From the IMG/VR virus record IMGVR_UViG_3300025508_000054, positions 1-36,730 of that record: DNA of 36,730 bases; one strand, 5' to 3'. The notes under the pieces were generated by a model. It ran no database searches. It was given only the letters and a program-made list of their open reading frames with translations, and had not been told where the DNA came from. Positions 3,710 to 30,128 of the stretch are shown in pieces. The stretch's first letter is position 1, and each line of letters begins with the position of its first letter. This DNA is from a virus. The translations under genes were made by a program, and so were the position numbers.

Positions 3710-4021
3710 CTAATAATTAATTTCCCGGTTAAGATCTTTGATATCGTAACTGTGTTCTCTAACTTGATCTGCTAGTTGTCTGTATAAATTTTCTGCCATC
3801 TGCCATGTTGCTTCAGCAGAAGATAGTCTTGTATTGATATCTGTAATATTTTTTTCTAATACACTTACGTCTCTTTCAAGATTAGTAAGTCTTAATTCGT
3901 TTTGATTAATAGTGTCAGTAAGATTTACAATATAACGAACACCAGTAAAAGTTCCGACTAGGACTGACGCCACAACCGGAACCATTACGATATTTTTTTT
4001 TAATAAATCTACTAAATTCAT
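3710..4021 (-). CDS. Membrane-anchored coiled-coil protein (103 aa)
   Basis: A short N-terminus (MNLVDLLKKN) is followed by one membrane segment at about residues 11-33 (IVMVPVVASVLVGTF). An uninterrupted coiled coil with Leu/Ile heptads and many Asn/Asp runs from 35 to 100. The topology matches the gene at 2789-3166 and resembles i-spanins in outline. Its ATG overlaps the stop of the 33-aa membrane peptide (TAATG at 4023-4019). Whether it acts in lysis, superinfection exclusion or membrane attachment of replication cannot be told from sequence. Confidence 0.7.
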   Translation of the reverse strand: MNLVDLLKKNIVMVPVVASVLVGTFTGVRYIVNLTDTINQNELRLTNLERDVSVLEKNITDINTRLSSAEATWQMAENLYRQLADQVREHSYDIKDLNREINY

Positions 4022-14007: not shown

Positions 14008-14455
14008 CAGGTTTGTATTTAGTTTTTCCCTCTGATTTATATGCGTGTAAGAACTGTTTTCTAGGTTGATCAGTGGTGTAACTACAGTGTATCCATCCTG
14101 AGTTTGGTTCGCCGGGCGTGTAGAACTCGAGGATCAATTGATCAAATTCTAAGTTCATATAAATCCAGTCAGCTAATTCTGCATTGTCGGTGCCCATACA
14201 TTCGAAGTCTGCGGCCTCAGCTTTTGCATGCTGACTGTTAATCGAGCTACCTATTTTTAGGCACAGCTGCTCGCTACGAAATCCGCTAGTTACTTTTACT
14301 CTGCCGAAGTGGTCACGTACCGGCTGTAAAATATTTTCACACAATGCTTTTAGTTTTTCTATCTGACCTGAGTTTGGATTGTTATTTATATCTAACCTAA
14401 CAGCAGTGTCTGATTTAATTAATTCTTGAAGTGTGAAATTACGACTTAAATTCAT
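13979..14455 (-). CDS. M15-family peptidase, probable endolysin (158 aa)
   Basis: This peptidase_M15_3-like domain spans nearly the whole protein. The zinc ligands are H76 and D83 in SQHAKAEAADFEC and H123 in GWIHCSY, and VTSGFRSE (55-62) is the conserved strand-turn. Enzymes of this family cut D-Ala-D-Ala or L-Ala-D-Glu bonds in peptidoglycan stems. No signal peptide is visible, so release would need a holin; the membrane protein at 15040-15219 is a candidate. The GC content is visibly higher than that of the adjacent sulfotransferase. It overlaps that gene by 17 bases at its start. Confidence 0.85.
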   Translation of the reverse strand: MNLSRNFTLQELIKSDTAVRLDINNNPNSGQIEKLKALCENILQPVRDHFGRVKVTSGFRSEQLCLKIGSSINSQHAKAEAADFECMGTDNAELADWIYMNLEFDQLILEFYTPGEPNSGWIHCSYTTDQPRKQFLHAYKSEGKTKYKPVIGKAVDLV

Positions 14456-15026
14456 AGTTAAATAATTTGTAGTCCTTGTAATAATAATTTTTAATATATT
14501 TTATTTTTTCTTCATTTAAAGATATTTGATTTATCTCAACACCTTCATCAGAATTTTTAAATTTATTAATTTTAATGTTAAAATTATACATCATCCATTC
14601 AACAAATTCATCTTTAAAATTATCTTCAAATTTCCATATTTTAGTATTGTGATCTACAAAATTTACTTGAGGAACAAACCAATTAGAAGGGTTATTTAAT
14701 ATTTCATTGTTTATTGTTTGATCAAAATCTTCTTGACTTCTAAACATTTTATCTATCTTCTCTTCATTAAACATCCAATTTTTACTAACCATTGAAATAA
14801 ATCTACTAACAGGTTCTCTCACAACAGAAAATTTTTTCATTGTATAATTATTTAAAAACTCATGATACTCAGGATAAGTTAAATGTAAAATTTCTTTCCC
14901 TTTGTAATGACTTTCATAACTTCCATATTGTCTAACATCGTATCCATTTTCAATTAATGTACCTCTTATGAATCGACCTGCCGTTCTAGGTATATGTGCG
15001 AAAAATATATTTCTATCAACAATCAT
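14439..15026 (-). CDS. Sulfotransferase-like protein (195 aa)
   Basis: The N-terminus carries FFAHIPRTAGRFIRGTL (residues 8-24), matching the 5'-phosphosulfate loop of PAPS-dependent sulfotransferases (family Sulfotransfer_2). VVREPVSRFISMV (68-80) matches the 3'-phosphate site (R70, S74). It would transfer sulfate from PAPS to a carbohydrate or other acceptor in the cytoplasm. The rest is very rich in Lys, Asn, Ile and Tyr. At 195 residues it is short but both nucleotide-site motifs are intact. It sits between the holin-like and endolysin genes, an unusual place for an enzyme, and looks like inserted cargo. Confidence 0.75.
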   Translation of the reverse strand: MIVDRNIFFAHIPRTAGRFIRGTLIENGYDVRQYGSYESHYKGKEILHLTYPEYHEFLNNYTMKKFSVVREPVSRFISMVSKNWMFNEEKIDKMFRSQEDFDQTINNEILNNPSNWFVPQVNFVDHNTKIWKFEDNFKDEFVEWMMYNFNIKINKFKNSDEGVEINQISLNEEKIKYIKNYYYKDYKLFNYEFKS

Positions 15027-23071: not shown

Positions 23072-23235
23072 TAATTTATAAAGAAGTTAAATGCTTCTAC
23101 TTCATCCTTTAAATCTTCTTGGTATGTTGTATTTAATTTTTCCACAATAGCGTCTAAATCTCTAACTTGAGATTCTGCTACTTGTAAATTATATTCTGAT
23201 TCTGGTCTAGTAATTACTTGTACTATTTTTGCCAT
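23071..23235 (-). CDS. Small acidic helical protein (54 aa)
   Basis: ATG 23235-23233 to TAA 23073-23071. The product begins MAKIVQVITRPESEYNLQVA and is an acidic amphipathic helix over most of its length, ending EVEAFNFFIN. It shows TAATG overlaps with both neighbours. A small chaperone or linker for the adjacent tail hub is possible. No family is recognised. Confidence 0.65.
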   Translation of the reverse strand: MAKIVQVITRPESEYNLQVAESQVRDLDAIVEKLNTTYQEDLKDEVEAFNFFIN

Positions 23236-25412
23236 TATCTTCTTCCGTCTGGTTGTGTATCTAATCTAAACGTTCCTAGTTTCCAACTTTGAGATGTAGA
23301 AGTGTTTTCTATTTTTAAAGCAATTGCTCTAGCTCTAGCACGTGTATCTACTTTGGTAGTAGAGGATGTAATATCAAAAGGACCTAAAGAAGAACCTGCT
23401 TGACTATCATTAGGATAGTTTCTTAATTCTAATGTAATTCTAGTAGTACCTGTTTGAGCAATAAAGTCAGGTATAAATCTTCTAATCTTCATTATAAATT
23501 CACCATCTCCTTTAAAAGTTGCAACTCCTGTTTGTTGTCCAGTTGATGAACGAGCTTGTGTAATATCAAAATCTCCTGACTCAATGTTTGCAGTAATAGC
23601 TGAGATCACACCATTTTTTATTTGATCAGTTCCTGTTTCGTGTTCAAAATATATTGAGGTCCCATCTGTGTTACCTACAACATCAAATGATGTATCTGTT
23701 CCTGCATCATATTCTAATGCATGAGGTAAACCAAACACAGCAGAATCTTCCCACATAGTTCTAGCTAATGTTCCATTAGTCCAAACCGGTCTTTGTGGAG
23801 AAGAGTCAAAATAATTATAAGAAACTACTCTGTTAACAACTGAAGATGAAGACGTTGGATAAAACCACATAACTTCACCAAAAAGATTATTTAGTCCAGC
23901 TGACACCATTTGATTACCAGAATCTAAATTTATATCATCATAAACATGATCTTCTACTAAACAAGGTAAAGATTCTAATCTACCTGCATATCTAAAGAAA
24001 CCATTCTCTGACATCCAATACGCAGCACCATCAACTTCTACACATGCATTCTGTCCAACCAATCCACAGTTAGTTCCGACTTGTGCAAACGCAAACGTAA
24101 ATGGTTGACCTACAAAACGTTGTGTGAATAACGCTGTGTCAGTCCAAACATAAATAGCATCACGACCTCTAATTGCTCCTCTGATCTGTGATCCGTCGGC
24201 CAGTCTTTGTGTGCCGGCTGTGTTAGTTGCTGTAGGTATATAAGTGTTTATATCTTCTTGGTCCGAGAATCTAATAAACATATTATCTTGTGTGCTTGGT
24301 GATCCAATAGTTGTTTCTGTTCCAAAAAATACTAAGTGTCTATCCGGTGTAGATACAACCATGTGTCTTGATGCTGTTGGTGCACCAGATATAATTGTTG
24401 CTCTGTCAGAAGTTGCAGTTGCTGATGCAGAGTCCCATTGAAAAACTTCTCCATCATGAATTAAACATATAGCTTTGTCACCAAAGTTATCTAATGACCA
24501 CATACCAGGTTCAAGAACTAAGTCACCAGAAGCAGCTTCGCCCCATGCAACATAATTACTTGTGTCTGTTATTGTAGCACCATCACTGTGTGAAGCTGCA
24601 GTTGTATTTCTAACACCTCTTGTAACACCTGTTAAAGTATTACCTGATATACCTGTGTAAGACATTTCTTCTGTTCCTATTAAAATAAAGTTTGTTCCTG
24701 AACTTGGAAACGATCCTACATCCGCTAATACAATAGTTGTTGTTGAAGAATTTATAGCACCATTTAAAGTTGTAGTAAGTGGTCCTACTTGTTCTCCTCC
24801 CCACGTGCCTAATCCATAACCAAATCCTTTTGCTTGCACAGCAGGTCCAACAGTATAATAATGTTGTACTCTTATACCACCCGATGTTGTTGCACCACTT
24901 CCTGATTCATTAGAAGGCATTGTAATGGTGATTGTTGTACTGTTTGGTACAGAAGTGACCATAAATTTTTTATCATCAAAATCAGAGGCTGTATAGTTTG
25001 AGTTTGTTATTGTAGAAAAATTATCTAATAAAACAATATCATCTTCTTGAATATTATGATCTGTAGAAAAAGTTATTGTAACCGTAGGCGAGCCATTAGT
25101 AGTTGAAAAAGCATTGCTCAATGTTGTAGTAGATTTGATAGGGTGTATGTCATAAAATACACCACCAGAATATGCGTATAAAATTCTGTTAGTTCCTATA
25201 ATAGAATATTTTCTACCTAAACTATTTATAAAATGATGAAGACCTCTACCGGCTCCTGTTAATTTATCTGCTCCTAGTTGTCTCCAACCACCTATTTTTT
25301 CAGGTGTTCCATATCTAAATCTAACATTATCACAATCTACCCATTGACCTTCTGCTCCGGTAGGTGTGATTTGTTTATTAATACCTGGTTGAAAACCTAT
25401 TTTCTGCAACAT
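23235..25412 (-). CDS. Tail hub/nozzle-like structural protein (725 aa)
   Basis: The product begins MLQKIGFQPGINKQITPTGA. WVDCDNVRFRYGTPEKIGGW and GLHHFINSLGRKYSIIGTN are signatures of a marine phage tail protein family. The rest is beta-rich with repeated blades (AYSGGVFYDI, DRHLVFFGTE, RGRDAIYVWTDTALF), suggesting a beta-propeller like T7 gp12 or P22 gp10 hub proteins. I set the start at ATG 25412 (AGGA five bases upstream). A longer frame from TTG 25466 would cross the 19-bp hairpin and is unlikely. It is the first gene after the oxygenase cluster. The family call is by motif memory; the role is inferred. Confidence 0.75.
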   Translation of the reverse strand: MLQKIGFQPGINKQITPTGAEGQWVDCDNVRFRYGTPEKIGGWRQLGADKLTGAGRGLHHFINSLGRKYSIIGTNRILYAYSGGVFYDIHPIKSTTTLSNAFSTTNGSPTVTITFSTDHNIQEDDIVLLDNFSTITNSNYTASDFDDKKFMVTSVPNSTTITITMPSNESGSGATTSGGIRVQHYYTVGPAVQAKGFGYGLGTWGGEQVGPLTTTLNGAINSSTTTIVLADVGSFPSSGTNFILIGTEEMSYTGISGNTLTGVTRGVRNTTAASHSDGATITDTSNYVAWGEAASGDLVLEPGMWSLDNFGDKAICLIHDGEVFQWDSASATATSDRATIISGAPTASRHMVVSTPDRHLVFFGTETTIGSPSTQDNMFIRFSDQEDINTYIPTATNTAGTQRLADGSQIRGAIRGRDAIYVWTDTALFTQRFVGQPFTFAFAQVGTNCGLVGQNACVEVDGAAYWMSENGFFRYAGRLESLPCLVEDHVYDDINLDSGNQMVSAGLNNLFGEVMWFYPTSSSSVVNRVVSYNYFDSSPQRPVWTNGTLARTMWEDSAVFGLPHALEYDAGTDTSFDVVGNTDGTSIYFEHETGTDQIKNGVISAITANIESGDFDITQARSSTGQQTGVATFKGDGEFIMKIRRFIPDFIAQTGTTRITLELRNYPNDSQAGSSLGPFDITSSTTKVDTRARARAIALKIENTSTSQSWKLGTFRLDTQPDGRR

Positions 25413-25421
25413 AAAAATCCT

Positions 25422-25474
25422 ATAATATTTAGGCAGGAGACGATGTATGGTGGAATCTCCTGCCAAAATATTAT
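25422..25474 (-). promoter_or_regulatory. Long hairpin between oxygenase cluster and tail hub gene
   Basis: The arms ATAATATTT-A-GGCAGGAGA (25422-25440) and TCTCCTGCC-A-AAATATTAT (25456-25474) pair over 18 of 19 positions with one mismatch and a 15-base loop. On the minus-strand RNA the stem ends directly before AGGATTTTT and the ATG at 25412, so the ribosome site abuts it. It could be a terminator (five U's follow AGGA), an RNase III processing site, or a stability element. No new promoter is visible after it, so complete termination would silence the genes downstream. Partial termination or processing is therefore more likely. Confidence 0.65.
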
Positions 25475-25483
25475 TCTACTACA

Positions 25484-26122
25484 TTATTTAGTAAATTTAA
25501 AGCCTTTAAACCATTGAGGTAAGCCTAAATGTAGACGTTCGTCAAACATATTTTCTTTAGCTCCAGATGTTTTTATATCATTATAATGTAAGAAAACTTG
25601 AACACACTCATCACCTTTAAATTTTTTTCTCCAATGCTCTAACTCACATCCTCTGTAGACTAACATATCACCTGGTCTTAAATCTACTTTAACACCTTTC
25701 ATACCTTCTTTACCAGAAGGTTCTAAATAGATTGGCCAGTTATCACCACCTAGATTCATGGTAGTTGATATCTCACAACTAAACCTATCTTTATGTCTTT
25801 TTAACTCATGGCCTTTTTTATAGACTCTAGCATAAGTGTAGGCAGGGTATAATTTTAAATTAGTTGTTTTTTCCATAATGGGTTGGCATTTTAACATTAA
25901 AGTTTCCGCAGCAATATCTGAATAATTACTATAAGATCCTGGAACTTGTAATGTTTCATTTTCATAATATCCAAGGAGTCTTTCAAAAGGAGACATGTAT
26001 CTTGCTTTTATACAAGTATCATATACTTGATTTTTCATTACAAAATAATTAGCTAAAAAAGAAGCTAGTTCTTTTGAAATTGCTTTACGTATAATTATAT
26101 ATTTATCTTTTTTAAAACTCAT
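25484..26122 (-). CDS. 2OG-Fe(II) oxygenase (212 aa), last of the cluster
   Basis: The HxD motif is H110-K-D112 in KRHKDRFSCEIST. The distal ligand is H163 in LEHWR, after the GDMLVYRG strand. TTMNLGGDNWPIYLEPSG is the typical major-strand hairpin of phage and bacterial 2OG oxygenases. R113 and the VQVFLHYN strand complete the fold. Its start overlaps the preceding oxygenase gene by four bases (ATGA). Cyanophage relatives exist next to tail genes, substrates unknown. The hairpin at 25422-25474 follows its stop. Confidence 0.85.
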   Translation of the reverse strand: MSFKKDKYIIIRKAISKELASFLANYFVMKNQVYDTCIKARYMSPFERLLGYYENETLQVPGSYSNYSDIAAETLMLKCQPIMEKTTNLKLYPAYTYARVYKKGHELKRHKDRFSCEISTTMNLGGDNWPIYLEPSGKEGMKGVKVDLRPGDMLVYRGCELEHWRKKFKGDECVQVFLHYNDIKTSGAKENMFDERLHLGLPQWFKGFKFTK

Positions 26123-26748
26123 TTAATTACCTGATTTACATCTAAAATTATATTACCTGATATACTTACTCTAGTTTTATTAGAAGTATAAAAAGGATAC
26201 ACTTGGTGTCCTCTATTAGCTGTAAAAAATAACATAGTGCCTTCATCTTCTGGGTTTAAATGATAGTCATGCGTGCAAATTCTACCTGAAGAATTTGTAT
26301 AAAATAACTGAAATGTATTTGGATAAGCACAATTAGCATGATCAACAAAAGGTAATTTTTTTTCTTTATCATAACGAGCAGGTATCTTCATCCAAACTAC
26401 AAAAGAAAAAAGACCTGAATGAGTATGGAAAGGATTAAACTCATGTTTCTTTTGAAAATTTACCCAAAGACTTTCCATTTTAAAAGCACAATTATTATTT
26501 AAAATTTTAGGAATTAACCACGTGCCACAGATAGGTTGATCCATATATTCTTCAATAGTAGGTAATACTTCTTTTTCAAAAAACCAATTGTTTTTATCTT
26601 CAAGAAAAAAAGAACTATTTATTTGACCAACTAATTCTTTATTCCAATTTTGTTTTTTATTTTTAATATAACTGTTTAATCTATCTAAAGTTTCTTTAGA
26701 AAGTTTTCTTTGTACTACACCTGGATCATTAAAATTTACTATAGTCAT
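26119..26748 (-). CDS. 2OG-Fe(II) oxygenase-like protein, HxH type (209 aa)
   Basis: NPFHTHSGLFSFVVWM (residues 105-120) gives H108-T-H110 as proximal ligands, a variant of HxD found in the 2OG-FeII_Oxy_5-like group. GTMLFFTANRGHQVYPF provides the distal H181, and R193 in KTRVSISGNI is the candidate 2OG ligand. The FNDPGVVQRKLSKET start and Trp-rich ENLWV-like middle (MESLWVNFQ) are the substrate-shaping part. Four bases separate it from the upstream member. Sequence identity to the neighbours is low outside the core, so these are divergent paralogues rather than recent copies. Confidence 0.8.
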   Translation of the reverse strand: MTIVNFNDPGVVQRKLSKETLDRLNSYIKNKKQNWNKELVGQINSSFFLEDKNNWFFEKEVLPTIEEYMDQPICGTWLIPKILNNNCAFKMESLWVNFQKKHEFNPFHTHSGLFSFVVWMKIPARYDKEKKLPFVDHANCAYPNTFQLFYTNSSGRICTHDYHLNPEDEGTMLFFTANRGHQVYPFYTSNKTRVSISGNIILDVNQVIK

Positions 26749-26752
26749 TAAT

Positions 26753-27394
26753 TTATTTTATGTTATCTATTATTGAATTTTCAACAGCTTGTATATTCCA
26801 ATGTATAAACCTAAAAGGTTCTTTTCCATAGTCTACCGCAAACTCGTGTTCTAAGTATCCTGGAAATATAACTAAAGTTCCTGGTTCAGGTTTCATATGA
26901 AACTGTTCGTGACCTGCCCATACACCGTTGATGTCTGGTTTCATTTTTAATTTTGTAGATCTTGCACCAGTTTTTGGTTCGTGAAATACAGGATAAGAAG
27001 TTTTATCACTGCATTTTAAAAAATAAAATCCTGATACGTGTTGGTTCCAATGTATGTGCGCAGAGTGATGACCACCACCTTTCTTAGCAAATTCTTGTAC
27101 CCACATTTCATTAAATACAAGAGTGTATTTATTCATATCGTAACCTTGTTGATCTAAATATTCCCAAGACTGTTGACCAACATATTTTTTAAAATCTAAA
27201 AAATTATTATCTGTAACTAAAGAAGGTGTGTGGTAAGATCTTCCAAAGTCTCCATTTTTTTTTATATGTTCTTTAGCTTCTTTAGTGGCTTTAGCTTTTT
27301 TTATATGTTTGTTAGATGCTTTATTTAAAGAACTTAAAAACTCTGTTTTAAGTTCAGTCCAAATTGGTGTCCAAAAAAAATTACTTTTATTCAT
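26753..27394 (-). CDS. 2OG-Fe(II) oxygenase, 2OG-FeII_Oxy_5-like (213 aa)
   Basis: HSAHIHWNQHVSGFYFLK (110-127) contains H113-I-H115, the core of this subfamily. GTLVIFPGYLEHEFAVDYG supplies the distal H183, and R195 in FRFIHWNI is the 2OG-binding candidate. A Lys/Ala-rich N-terminal helix (about 20-47) and the region around WEYLDQQGYDM form the variable front. Its start overlaps the upstream hydroxylase stop by one base (TAATG), so the two are translationally coupled. The role is most likely hydroxylation of a protein or small molecule; the substrate is unknown. Confidence 0.85.
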   Translation of the reverse strand: MNKSNFFWTPIWTELKTEFLSSLNKASNKHIKKAKATKEAKEHIKKNGDFGRSYHTPSLVTDNNFLDFKKYVGQQSWEYLDQQGYDMNKYTLVFNEMWVQEFAKKGGGHHSAHIHWNQHVSGFYFLKCSDKTSYPVFHEPKTGARSTKLKMKPDINGVWAGHEQFHMKPEPGTLVIFPGYLEHEFAVDYGKEPFRFIHWNIQAVENSIIDNIK

Positions 27395-28026
27395 TATTTA
27401 AATGGGTTTCCTAAATTCCATACTACTAAACTGTACCTTGATCCTTTCGTTATTGGTTTAACTCTATGCCATACAAATGAAGGAAATACAACAATAGATC
27501 CTTTTGGTAATATTTGTTTTGCTTTCATTACATGTTTAGACTCGTCTCTCATAGGTGGATCATAATTTCTAGCATCAAATTCCAACTCTCCACCCTCATA
27601 CTCAGAACCATCTGATAACTGACAAGTCATAGATAGTTTTCTAACTTTACCATGATGAGGTGTATTAGGTTTGTTGTATGGACTTCTCCAAGAGTCACAA
27701 TGCCAATCATAATGTTGGTTTAATTTATACTTAGTAAATTGTGCTTCTTCTGTTCTTTCCCATTGAAAATTCCACCCTGCTTGTTTATTTGCTAGATGCA
27801 CGTAAGGTAAAATTTCGTTGTATATCCAAGTCTCATCTAACCAAACTATGTCAGAGTTCCTAGTATTTTTTAAATTTCTTACTTCTTTTTTATTTAATTT
27901 TTTATCCATAAAGTCTCCTGTTGTCGCTATAGCTTCTTCTTTTTGTAAACCATATTGAATAACATCATCACAAAACTTAATAGGTAAAGCACTTTTAAAA
28001 TACCAATAATAATTAAATAAATTCAT
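27394..28026 (-). CDS. Prolyl-4-hydroxylase / PKHD-like 2OG oxygenase (210 aa)
   Basis: This is the clearest canonical member. H109-C-D111 sits in NQHYDWHCDSW, GSIVVFPSFVWHRVKPI carries the distal H187, and G195-S-R197-YSLVVWNLG provides the 2OG-binding Arg. LSMTCQLSDGSEYEGGELEF is the standard strand pair seen in PiuC/YbiX-type hydroxylases and phage P4H proteins. The first gene of the cluster (28013-28516) overlaps its start by 14 bases. The family hydroxylates prolyl residues or small peptides in some organisms; the substrate here is unknown. Confidence 0.9.
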   Translation of the reverse strand: MNLFNYYWYFKSALPIKFCDDVIQYGLQKEEAIATTGDFMDKKLNKKEVRNLKNTRNSDIVWLDETWIYNEILPYVHLANKQAGWNFQWERTEEAQFTKYKLNQHYDWHCDSWRSPYNKPNTPHHGKVRKLSMTCQLSDGSEYEGGELEFDARNYDPPMRDESKHVMKAKQILPKGSIVVFPSFVWHRVKPITKGSRYSLVVWNLGNPFK

Positions 28027-28516
28027 AAGTTATAGTTTGTACATAATTTAAATCATGTGTTTGATTGTTTTGTAAATGATACATACAAGTTGAAGGAAAC
28101 ATTATAAATTTATTATCCGTAAGATCTATATCCCAAGATCTTCCTTTACCTCTATTATCATCGTAATATATTCTTACACTACATTCTTCTGTTTTTAACC
28201 CATACAACATTGTAAAATCTGGTGAGTTAAGTAAATCTACAGGATTTACATTTATAATAGGTTGTGAGGTTTGTCCTGGTTTATAAGCATCTACCCAAGT
28301 ATCTTTACTTCCAATTGATAATTTATATTTTATTTTTAGGTGTTCTCGTATGTAAGTATCTAACATATCCCATTCTCTACTAAATTTAAATTTAGAATTA
28401 GATAACTCTGCTTTTACACCATCTAATATTAAAGAACCTCTTTGTATCTCAAAGTTTTCTGGCATTGAAACATCGCCATAATATATAGGTATTTCTGTTA
28501 AAACTATTTTATGCAT
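28013..28516 (-). CDS. Degenerate 2OG-oxygenase-fold protein (167 aa), first of the cluster
   Basis: The C-terminal half has the layout of the neighbouring oxygenases: a WVDAYKPGQTSQP segment, then CSVRIYYDD, then NKFIMFPSTCMYHLQNNQ and a closing strand TITYEFI. H147 sits at the distal-ligand position, but the usual HxD/HxH after the WV-x-YK-x-G turn is replaced by TSQPIINV, and no Arg is seen in the final strand. It therefore probably cannot bind iron and 2OG normally. It may be a structural or regulatory partner, or a decaying paralogue. A promoter lies just upstream (28542-28569). Confidence 0.6.
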   Translation of the reverse strand: MHKIVLTEIPIYYGDVSMPENFEIQRGSLILDGVKAELSNSKFKFSREWDMLDTYIREHLKIKYKLSIGSKDTWVDAYKPGQTSQPIINVNPVDLLNSPDFTMLYGLKTEECSVRIYYDDNRGKGRSWDIDLTDNKFIMFPSTCMYHLQNNQTHDLNYVQTITYEFI

Positions 28517-28569: not shown

Positions 28570-29034
28570 CTATGCTAAATTATCGACTGCAATCCAACCT
28601 GTAGAATTATCAGCTTGATAAGCTGACTCATCCCATTGGTATTCCCAGTGATGTGTATTTGCGTTATTTTGATTTTCTTGTTCTGTTGTTAAATCTGGTT
28701 TTTCTAAAGGTGGTACCCATCCAAGAGTTACTCTTGTCCAAGATGCATAAGGTTTTGGAGGAATAAAAACATTATTACTTGGGTCCCAAATAAAACCTAC
28801 CCCTGCGTAATTTCCTCTAAATGCTTTTGAGTCGTCACCAGATTTATGTTTATTTCCATATGTGTTATAAGAAGTTTTAATCCAAAGATGTGCAGGCCAG
28901 TTATTATTTTTTTCTAAATATGCTTGTCCTACTGATTCAGTTTCTACGCCTTCTTCATTTTGACAATCTGAATCATTTAAAGTAAGTACACCTAAAACTA
29001 TATTCTCTTCTGATATTTTTGCAAAGTGTGCCAT
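28570..29034 (-). CDS. Virion-associated protein of a marine T4-like/podovirus family (154 aa)
   Basis: The product starts MAHFAKISEENIVLGVLTLN. The motif IKTSYNTYGNKH, then SKAFRGNYAGVGFIWD, then FIPPKPYASW is a well-conserved pattern of cyanophage and pelagiphage virion proteins, which I recognise from many genomes. The C-terminus is Trp/Asn/Gln-rich. It is probably a tail-associated or fibre accessory protein. It is separated by only two bases from the Gly-rich adhesin gene and is the last gene before the oxygenase promoter. Confidence 0.75.
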   Translation of the reverse strand: MAHFAKISEENIVLGVLTLNDSDCQNEEGVETESVGQAYLEKNNNWPAHLWIKTSYNTYGNKHKSGDDSKAFRGNYAGVGFIWDPSNNVFIPPKPYASWTRVTLGWVPPLEKPDLTTEQENQNNANTHHWEYQWDESAYQADNSTGWIAVDNLA

Positions 29035-29036
29035 AA

Positions 29037-30128
29037 TTATTCCTGGAACCTATATCTTATTACAACGACTCCTGAACCACCAGCGCCACCTTGATTTTCT
29101 CTATCTGTTTGTGGATTACCTGTATGAGGTCCTGGAGGATTACAAGTTGCTCCCACGGGTGAACCACCTCCGCCACCAAGATTAGTGCCACCTGAAGTTG
29201 CTAAAACTACATTTCCAGAACCTGGACCTGTAGTAGTTCCTGAGTTTCCTCCACCACCTGGACCACCAAGTCCTTTATTTCCATTATTTTGAATTGTTCC
29301 TTGTTGTCTCATTCCGCCACCACCGCCACCACCTCTTGTAACAGATGATCCTGTAATACTAGAAGCTGTGCCGTTTCCACCATTTCCACCTTTCATATTA
29401 GGAATAGGTACGCTAGAAGGTATTTGCACTCCTGCACCTTGTGCGCCACCACCGCCACCGGCACCATTATCATTAGCGTTTCCGCCACCGTTTCCACCGC
29501 CATCAGTTCCTTGAGCTGGACTTGTAGGAGGTACATTTCCACTTCTACCTGCAGTAGTAGTTCTACCACCACCGCCACCTGATCCACCACACATAGGGTT
29601 TCCTCCACCCCCTGCTGAAGTTATTGTTGAAAAAACTGAATTTGTACCTGAACCTTGAGGAGATGTAGTTGGTGGATTAACTGCGTTAATAAACCAAGGT
29701 GCACCTCCAGCGCCAACTGTAACTGGTACAGGTGATTCAACTGGTAAAGAAGCACAAGATGTTTTTGCTAGTGGGCTATTAGTCCATGGACCAGATACAG
29801 GCACTTCATGAGATTCTCTATAACCTCCAGCACCTCCACCTCCGGACATTGGACCGGCTCCACCGCCGCCACCGGCTAAAACCAAGTAATCAACTTTTGC
29901 TAAATCTCCGCTTCCAGCTGAAACACAAAAAGTTCCTGGACCAGTAAAAACGTGTACTTTAAAATTAGTATCTACTGTTGTTACAGTTCCACCAGTTGCT
30001 GCAATGTATGCATCTGGTTTTCCTCCGGCACCAAATCCTAAAACTTGATAACCAAAAGATTTACCTCTAGATTGTTTTTTTTTAGAACCTTTTCCAGTTA
30101 TTATAAATGGATTTTCTACATCTTTCAT
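29037..30128 (-). CDS. Glycine-rich tail adhesin / fibre tip protein (363 aa)
   Basis: Residues 1-75 form a head domain (GKSFGYQVLGFGAGGKPDAY, then TVDTNFKVHVFTGPGTF). From about residue 80 the chain is dominated by GGGGG, GGxGG and GN runs with short Pro/Thr/Ser-rich links. It ends in GGSGVVVIRYRF, the terminal motif of Gly-rich phage tail proteins. Such domains pack as polyglycine-II helix bundles in T-even-like adhesins and determine host receptor binding. Local GC is high because of GGN codons. The protein is a plausible host-range determinant. Confidence 0.8.
   Translation of the reverse strand: MKDVENPFIITGKGSKKKQSRGKSFGYQVLGFGAGGKPDAYIAATGGTVTTVDTNFKVHVFTGPGTFCVSAGSGDLAKVDYLVLAGGGGGAGPMSGGGGAGGYRESHEVPVSGPWTNSPLAKTSCASLPVESPVPVTVGAGGAPWFINAVNPPTTSPQGSGTNSVFSTITSAGGGGNPMCGGSGGGGGRTTTAGRSGNVPPTSPAQGTDGGGNGGGNANDNGAGGGGGAQGAGVQIPSSVPIPNMKGGNGGNGTASSITGSSVTRGGGGGGGMRQQGTIQNNGNKGLGGPGGGGNSGTTTGPGSGNVVLATSGGTNLGGGGGSPVGATCNPPGPHTGNPQTDRENQGGAGGSGVVVIRYRFQE

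Follow-up and report, generated by a model that had tools for sequence, protein, structure and literature searches.

The window, a linear 36,730-base virus record from IMG/VR, carries five contiguous, same-strand genes at 25484-28516, all of which encode proteins of the 2OG-Fe(II) oxygenase (DSBH) fold. Together they constitute a conserved operon, and the virus is a pelagiphage of the HTVC023P type. The best explanation for this operon, to which we assign a probability of roughly 40%, is that it encodes oxygenases together with non-catalytic or atypical partners, which would hydroxylate a tail-associated protein from the same operon.

The proteins were named in transcription order as P5 (28013..28516, 167 aa, the first gene of the array), P4 (27394..28026), P3 (26753..27394), P2 (26119..26748) and P1 (25484..26122), all on the minus strand. 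The initial annotation had described five contiguous ORFs, and the overlaps of 14, 1 and 4 bases and the 4-base gap were found as described. Its reading of the array as a divergent, accumulated set beside tail genes also held, as no pairwise BLASTP E-value fell below 0.008; a fresh tandem duplication of the five genes as a set was rejected. Since profile-profile matches between the families were weak (the best being P2-P4, E=1.5e-4, with none for P5), fold prediction was needed.

In scans of viral contigs, P5 had 284 relatives, P4 at least 600, P3 at least 594, P2 44 and P1 507, and up to 80 per protein were retained. An operon was defined as the stretch bounded by homologues of the 28570 gene (28570..29034, minus strand) and of the 23235 gene (23235..25466, minus strand), the downstream boundary of the array, which encodes a virion structural protein (phrog_3287, 1.5e-99). 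The search of marine viral contigs for the array order, which the initial annotation had suggested, gave 93 distinct complete operons in which all genes are co-oriented and the core order is kept far beyond chance. P5, P4 and P1 were present in 93/93 and P3 in 87/93, with a gene of the P6 type (described below) in 28 and P2 in 19; these operons were chosen by resemblance to the window, and the counts describe this lineage rather than all phages. Across them, 224 of 328 gene junctions overlapped, a figure somewhat inflated by mechanical first-start-codon calls. P5 was also present at 262 of the 263 P4 loci, at a median distance of 13 bp. Median dN/dS values were 0.15 (P1), 0.17 (P3), 0.18 (P4), 0.22 (P5, which is thus under purifying selection) and 0.45 (P2). 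That the array has been kept in so many viral contigs points to a dedicated function.

The window covers only part (36.7 kb) of the genome of an HTVC023P-type pelagiphage. Its DNA polymerase (PolA) is closest to that of Pelagibacter phage HTVC027P (46%), and its gene order is common to HTVC023P and HTVC027P. The genes of the window correspond to 1-10.9 kb and 35-46 kb of HTVC027P, and an equivalent of the intervening ~24 kb (roughly 11-35 kb), including terminase and capsid, is absent. A near-identity DNA search of phage records with the window returned 0 matches. The initial annotation had counted seven 2OG-type proteins in a genome of less than 40 kb; the two outside the array, P6 and P7, were substantiated, while the genome size was not, because the window is a fragment and the seven genes are counted on a partial genome, the whole of which is perhaps 57-61 kb like the complete genomes of related phages. 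A 59.5 kb contig from a Pelagibacteraceae (SAR11) single-cell genome bears the same array, which supports SAR11, the commonest ocean bacterium, as the probable host. HTVC023P-type phages have been reported to account for ~7.6% of viromic reads (PMC12753301). Elsewhere in the window, the product of 3710-4021 (minus strand) is 99% identical to an HTVC027P protein, against only 46% for the polymerases, which suggests a recent exchange. The gene at 14439-15026 (minus strand) encodes a sulfotransferase (PF03567, 2.4e-7; phrog_3347, galactose-3-O-sulfotransferase).

P5 is a pseudo-oxygenase. It matched phrog_81 weakly, and a PDB sequence search with its profile gave nothing credible. Its AlphaFold2 model (pLDDT 94) was matched by Foldseek to TlxI (top), PHD2 and prolyl-4-hydroxylases (P4H) with E 2e-6, in agreement with a DSBH fold. 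As for the active site, the initial annotation had attributed one motif pattern to all five proteins, and P5 carries none of it: L/I87, N89, Y146 and V/I159 stand where H, H, H and R are expected, and other residues have taken the place of the Fe ligands and of the 2OG-binding Arg throughout the family (201 sequences), the distal-His column being Tyr in 200 of the 201 members. These substitutions were read against an active-type relative by profile alignment, except for the last strand, which lies outside the alignment and was read by eye. The active-type relative occurs in three contigs (L320:1458-2012 and two more), is recognized by the P5 profile at E ~1e-12 to 1e-10, passes PF13759 and retains HDH...H...R. 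In all three, the 28570 homologue is flanked directly by the active-type gene on its upstream side and by P5 on its downstream side, and an old duplication giving P5 and its active-type relative around the 28570 gene is possible. Family alignment and model together characterize P5 as a conserved pseudo-oxygenase that kept the enzyme shape and lost the active site.

P4, P3 and P2 are probably active 2OG-Fe(II) oxygenases, as judged from Pfam matches above the cut-off and conserved motif columns, and for these three the motif attributed to the array stood. P4 (H109xD111...H187...R197, with triad and Arg invariant in the family alignment) passed PF13640 with 5.7e-15 and was related in sequence to PiuC (2.3e-5) and weakly to P4H (0.03) among solved structures, in line with a PKHD/P4H protein hydroxylase. 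P3 (H113xH115...H183...R195; PF13759 1.6e-12, 3bvc 7.9e-6) and P2 (H108xH110...H181...R193; PF13759 8.6e-8), the latter occupying a variable slot, carry HxH instead of HxD. The separate P7 (13483..14007, plus strand) is likewise a predicted 2OG-Fe(II) oxygenase of the PF13759 type (1.4e-7). P6 (954..1451, minus strand), which is separate as well, resembles these enzymes through H102xD104...H146...R157, invariant in its family, and matches a DNA 6mA demethylase weakly (E=0.01); its relatives occupy slots within the array in other phages. Its family, phrog_274, is named DNA endonuclease V in PHROGs and yet has an invariant HxD...H...R; this name is thus probably wrong and the family resembles 2OG oxygenases.

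P1 matched phrog_2954 and phrog_3531 (named ferrochelatase). Neither P1 nor three public homologues bearing this name matched any Pfam or NCBIfam family, and a PDB sequence search with the P1 profile gave nothing credible. The best fold match of the P1 model, which reached a pLDDT of only 80, was P4H (1.7e-8), and the fold was DSBH and not that of a chelatase. The structure predictions for P5 and P1 thus returned the fold assumed by the initial annotation. H110, D112 and H163 of P1 (H110xD112...H163) do not vary among its relatives from pelagiphages, cyanophages and metagenomes, so that the HxD...H part of the motif was retained, whereas the C-terminal Arg was not: C173 and Q175 stand near the C-terminal strand where a 2OG-binding Arg or Lys is expected. 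Either R165 or R99, both invariant in the P1 family, might replace the usual Arg. These features describe P1 as an atypical DSBH protein with a predicted intact Fe triad and without the canonical 2OG Arg, and the array accordingly falls short of the five enzymes initially proposed. A P1 homologue adjoined another 2OG gene in 9/9 phage records examined. The adjacency of 2OG and ferrochelatase genes was also seen by Wittmers et al. (2022), who read it as an iron/haem partnership (PMC9599517). Such a haem partnership was rejected, since neither the sequence family nor the fold of P1 is that of a ferrochelatase.

On its upstream side, the array is flanked by the 28570 protein (phrog_7759), a constant small neighbour and probable tail-associated protein, followed by a glycine-rich probable tail/adhesin protein (29037..30128, minus strand; PF21722 4.9e-7, phrog_2295). 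Wherever a P5 locus extended far enough to tell (251 loci), a 28570 homologue lay upstream of P5, and in 239 cases the two were no more than 100 bp apart. Members of the family also neighbour 2OG genes in unrelated phages, namely cyanophages, HTVC008M, HTVC033P, DSL-LC04 and ctNMl277. Of the 12 phages that have both a family member and 2OG genes, 10 have them no more than 2 kb apart; eight other phages have a 28570-like gene with no adjoining 2OG gene. Outside the group of the window, the association gave p=0.002 (Fisher/permutation, 8 lineages), a value not controlled for a general tail-gene hot spot.

In related operons, the variable slots are occupied by additional 2OG enzymes, a JmjC_2 protein, a protein of the Asp/Asn hydroxylase family (PF05118) and, in homologous arrays of other marine phages, a tryptophan halogenase (L112:3648-5171), a Nol-like carbamoyltransferase (L305:6590-8257) and a sulfotransferase (L325:843-1640). 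A DUF6445 protein (L149:9551-10228), named minor coat protein in phrog_1644, carries HxD...H, which makes it a candidate for a further 2OG-like protein. With phylogeny accounted for, slot content still correlated with the tail genes next to the array (partial Mantel r=0.20, p=0.002, 71 operons). We rejected this correlation as substrate evidence, as core genes gave similar or larger values in the controls (38 operons: slot 0.14, P1 0.17, downstream structural gene 0.52); it is explained by physical linkage or shared history.

That marine phages carry multiple 2OG genes is well documented: most T4-like cyanophages have 1-5 and S-SCSM1 has 24 (PMC9602691), eight 2OG gene types are reported from HTVC023P-type phages by Wittmers et al. 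(PMC9599517), and tandem sets are visible in public genomes. The initial annotation had pointed to single 2OG oxygenases near cyanophage tail genes; the idea that nothing beyond single genes is known there is contradicted by the following genomes. HTVC023P itself (MN698239.1) carries, as gp63-gp67, the 28570-like gene, P5, P4, P3 and P1 in the same order at 53-76% protein identity; it is devoid of P2, and the annotation of these genes goes no further than hypothetical, 2OG and putative ferrochelatase. At the same tail-gene position, close to a collar-domain tail gene, HTVC027P carries an inverted run of three tandem 2OG genes (L328:42092-43753), two of which are annotated as hypothetical. The myovirus HTVC008M (KC465899.1) possesses five tandem 2OG-type genes near a 28570 homologue, the last being a P1 homologue; they belong to other subfamilies, do not include P5 and lie on the strand opposite to the 28570 homologue. 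Among T4-like cyanophages, S-SSM5, S-MS29, S-CAM8, S-SM1 and S-RSM4 have tandem 2OG genes beside a 28570-like gene, the first three with a P1 homologue and a carbamoyltransferase at the same site, although these clusters differ in composition and are devoid of P5. The published roles of cyanophage 2OG genes are 2OG/NtcA or DNA repair (PMC3037559). The partner genes treated by Wittmers et al. (PMC9599517) are from the same phage group and are the same genes as those of the array; in its main text, the 2OG and ferrochelatase genes are nearby rather than adjacent, the ferrochelatase name is accepted, and mention of a pseudoenzyme was not found. As far as the accessible main texts show, what is new is that the operon is fixed, that it includes a conserved pseudo-oxygenase, that P1 is reassigned and that the 28570 gene is its constant neighbour.

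The operon set probably decorates a component of the virus or host surface, and a sequential modification pathway acting on virion proteins or on the host surface, as initially envisaged, is plausible. In the explanation that we favour, the operon genes would be translated together, and P5, perhaps also P1, would serve as non-catalytic or atypical partners of P4. The P4 complex would then hydroxylate residues of a protein that the operon itself encodes, for which the small 28570 protein and the tail/adhesin protein beside it are the likeliest candidates, and the variable slots would allow phages to add further oxidations, carbamoylation, halogenation or sulfation. This explanation is favoured by the co-oriented and mostly overlapping P5, P4, P1 and, nearly always, P3 genes, by the position of P5 next to the 28570 protein, whose family recurs near 2OG genes in unrelated phages, by the constant pairing of P1 with another 2OG gene, by the 2OG genes of HTVC027P at the same tail-gene position, and by the presence in the slots of protein-hydroxylase types (PF05118, JmjC_2) and tailoring enzymes. 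The retained fold and lost motif of P5 also have a precedent in TlxI/TlxJ, in which the efficiency of a 2OG oxygenase is raised by a partner without the Arg (PMC12141560). TlxI resembles P5, of which it is the top fold match, as a non-catalytic DSBH partner; it belongs to a fungal meroterpenoid pathway and has no close sequence relation to P5, whereas the putative pairing of P5 with P4 is based on gene adjacency. Against the favoured explanation, the slot/tail-gene link is no stronger than that of core genes, eight phages have the 28570-like gene without an adjoining 2OG gene, and neighbourhood is weak substrate evidence because insertions are frequent at tail genes in general. The fuller version, in which a multi-subunit complex with P5 and the Arg-less P1 as partners hydroxylates the phage's own tail proteins and swappable slots supply tailoring enzymes, must be regarded as rather unlikely.

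The main rival to tail-protein hydroxylation is a surface glycan target, a reading that we consider tentative and rather unlikely: by modifying a glycan or lipid of the host surface, or its cytoplasmic precursor, the enzymes would keep phage from binding to the infected cell or to its debris. Carbamoyltransferases and sulfotransferases often act on sugars, and a glycan target therefore fits equally well with the Nol-like carbamoyltransferase and sulfotransferase genes in the slots of related operons and with the sulfotransferase at 14439-15026. The Asp/Asn hydroxylase family (PF05118) includes lipid A hydroxylases as well. Nevertheless, the array sits among structural genes beside the constant 28570 protein, and no glycosyltransferase was seen within it. 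It is less likely still that unrelated oxygenases merely gather at a hot spot beside tail genes and are retained for separate reasons with no joint function; the slots do vary, and marine phages hold anywhere from one to 24 2OG genes (PMC9602691), but the P5-P4-(P3)-P1 order is invariant in the 93 operons, with overlaps, and the pseudoenzyme P5 is preserved.

A metabolic role, in which the enzymes draw down 2-oxoglutarate or act with iron/haem metabolism, has been proposed for cyanophages and pelagiphages (PMC3037559; PMC9599517), and HTVC027P infection raises host iron uptake (PMC12753301). We consider this role improbable, given that the haem link disappears with the ferrochelatase assignment of P1 and that consumption of 2OG alone needs no fixed-order divergent set, one member of which, P5, would be incapable of it. 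Equally improbable is the hydroxylation of DNA bases or RNA, for although 2OG oxygenases of other phages act on DNA and P6 weakly matches the 6mA demethylase, the array lies in the structural module, away from the polymerase, and its closest matches are of the P4H/PKHD types.

The reassignment of P1 corrects the ferrochelatase name on many cyanophage and pelagiphage records. The 2OG genes of HTVC023P-type phages have so far been counted as metabolic genes without a substrate, and the fixed operon, the pseudo-oxygenase and the fold of P1 put a testable alternative in place of the haem reading, namely a co-expressed complex with a probable substrate encoded next to it. If tail-protein hydroxylation proves true, phage adhesins would gain chemical variation not encoded in their own sequence, and a multi-subunit oxygenase complex would be built by one of the ocean's most abundant phage groups.
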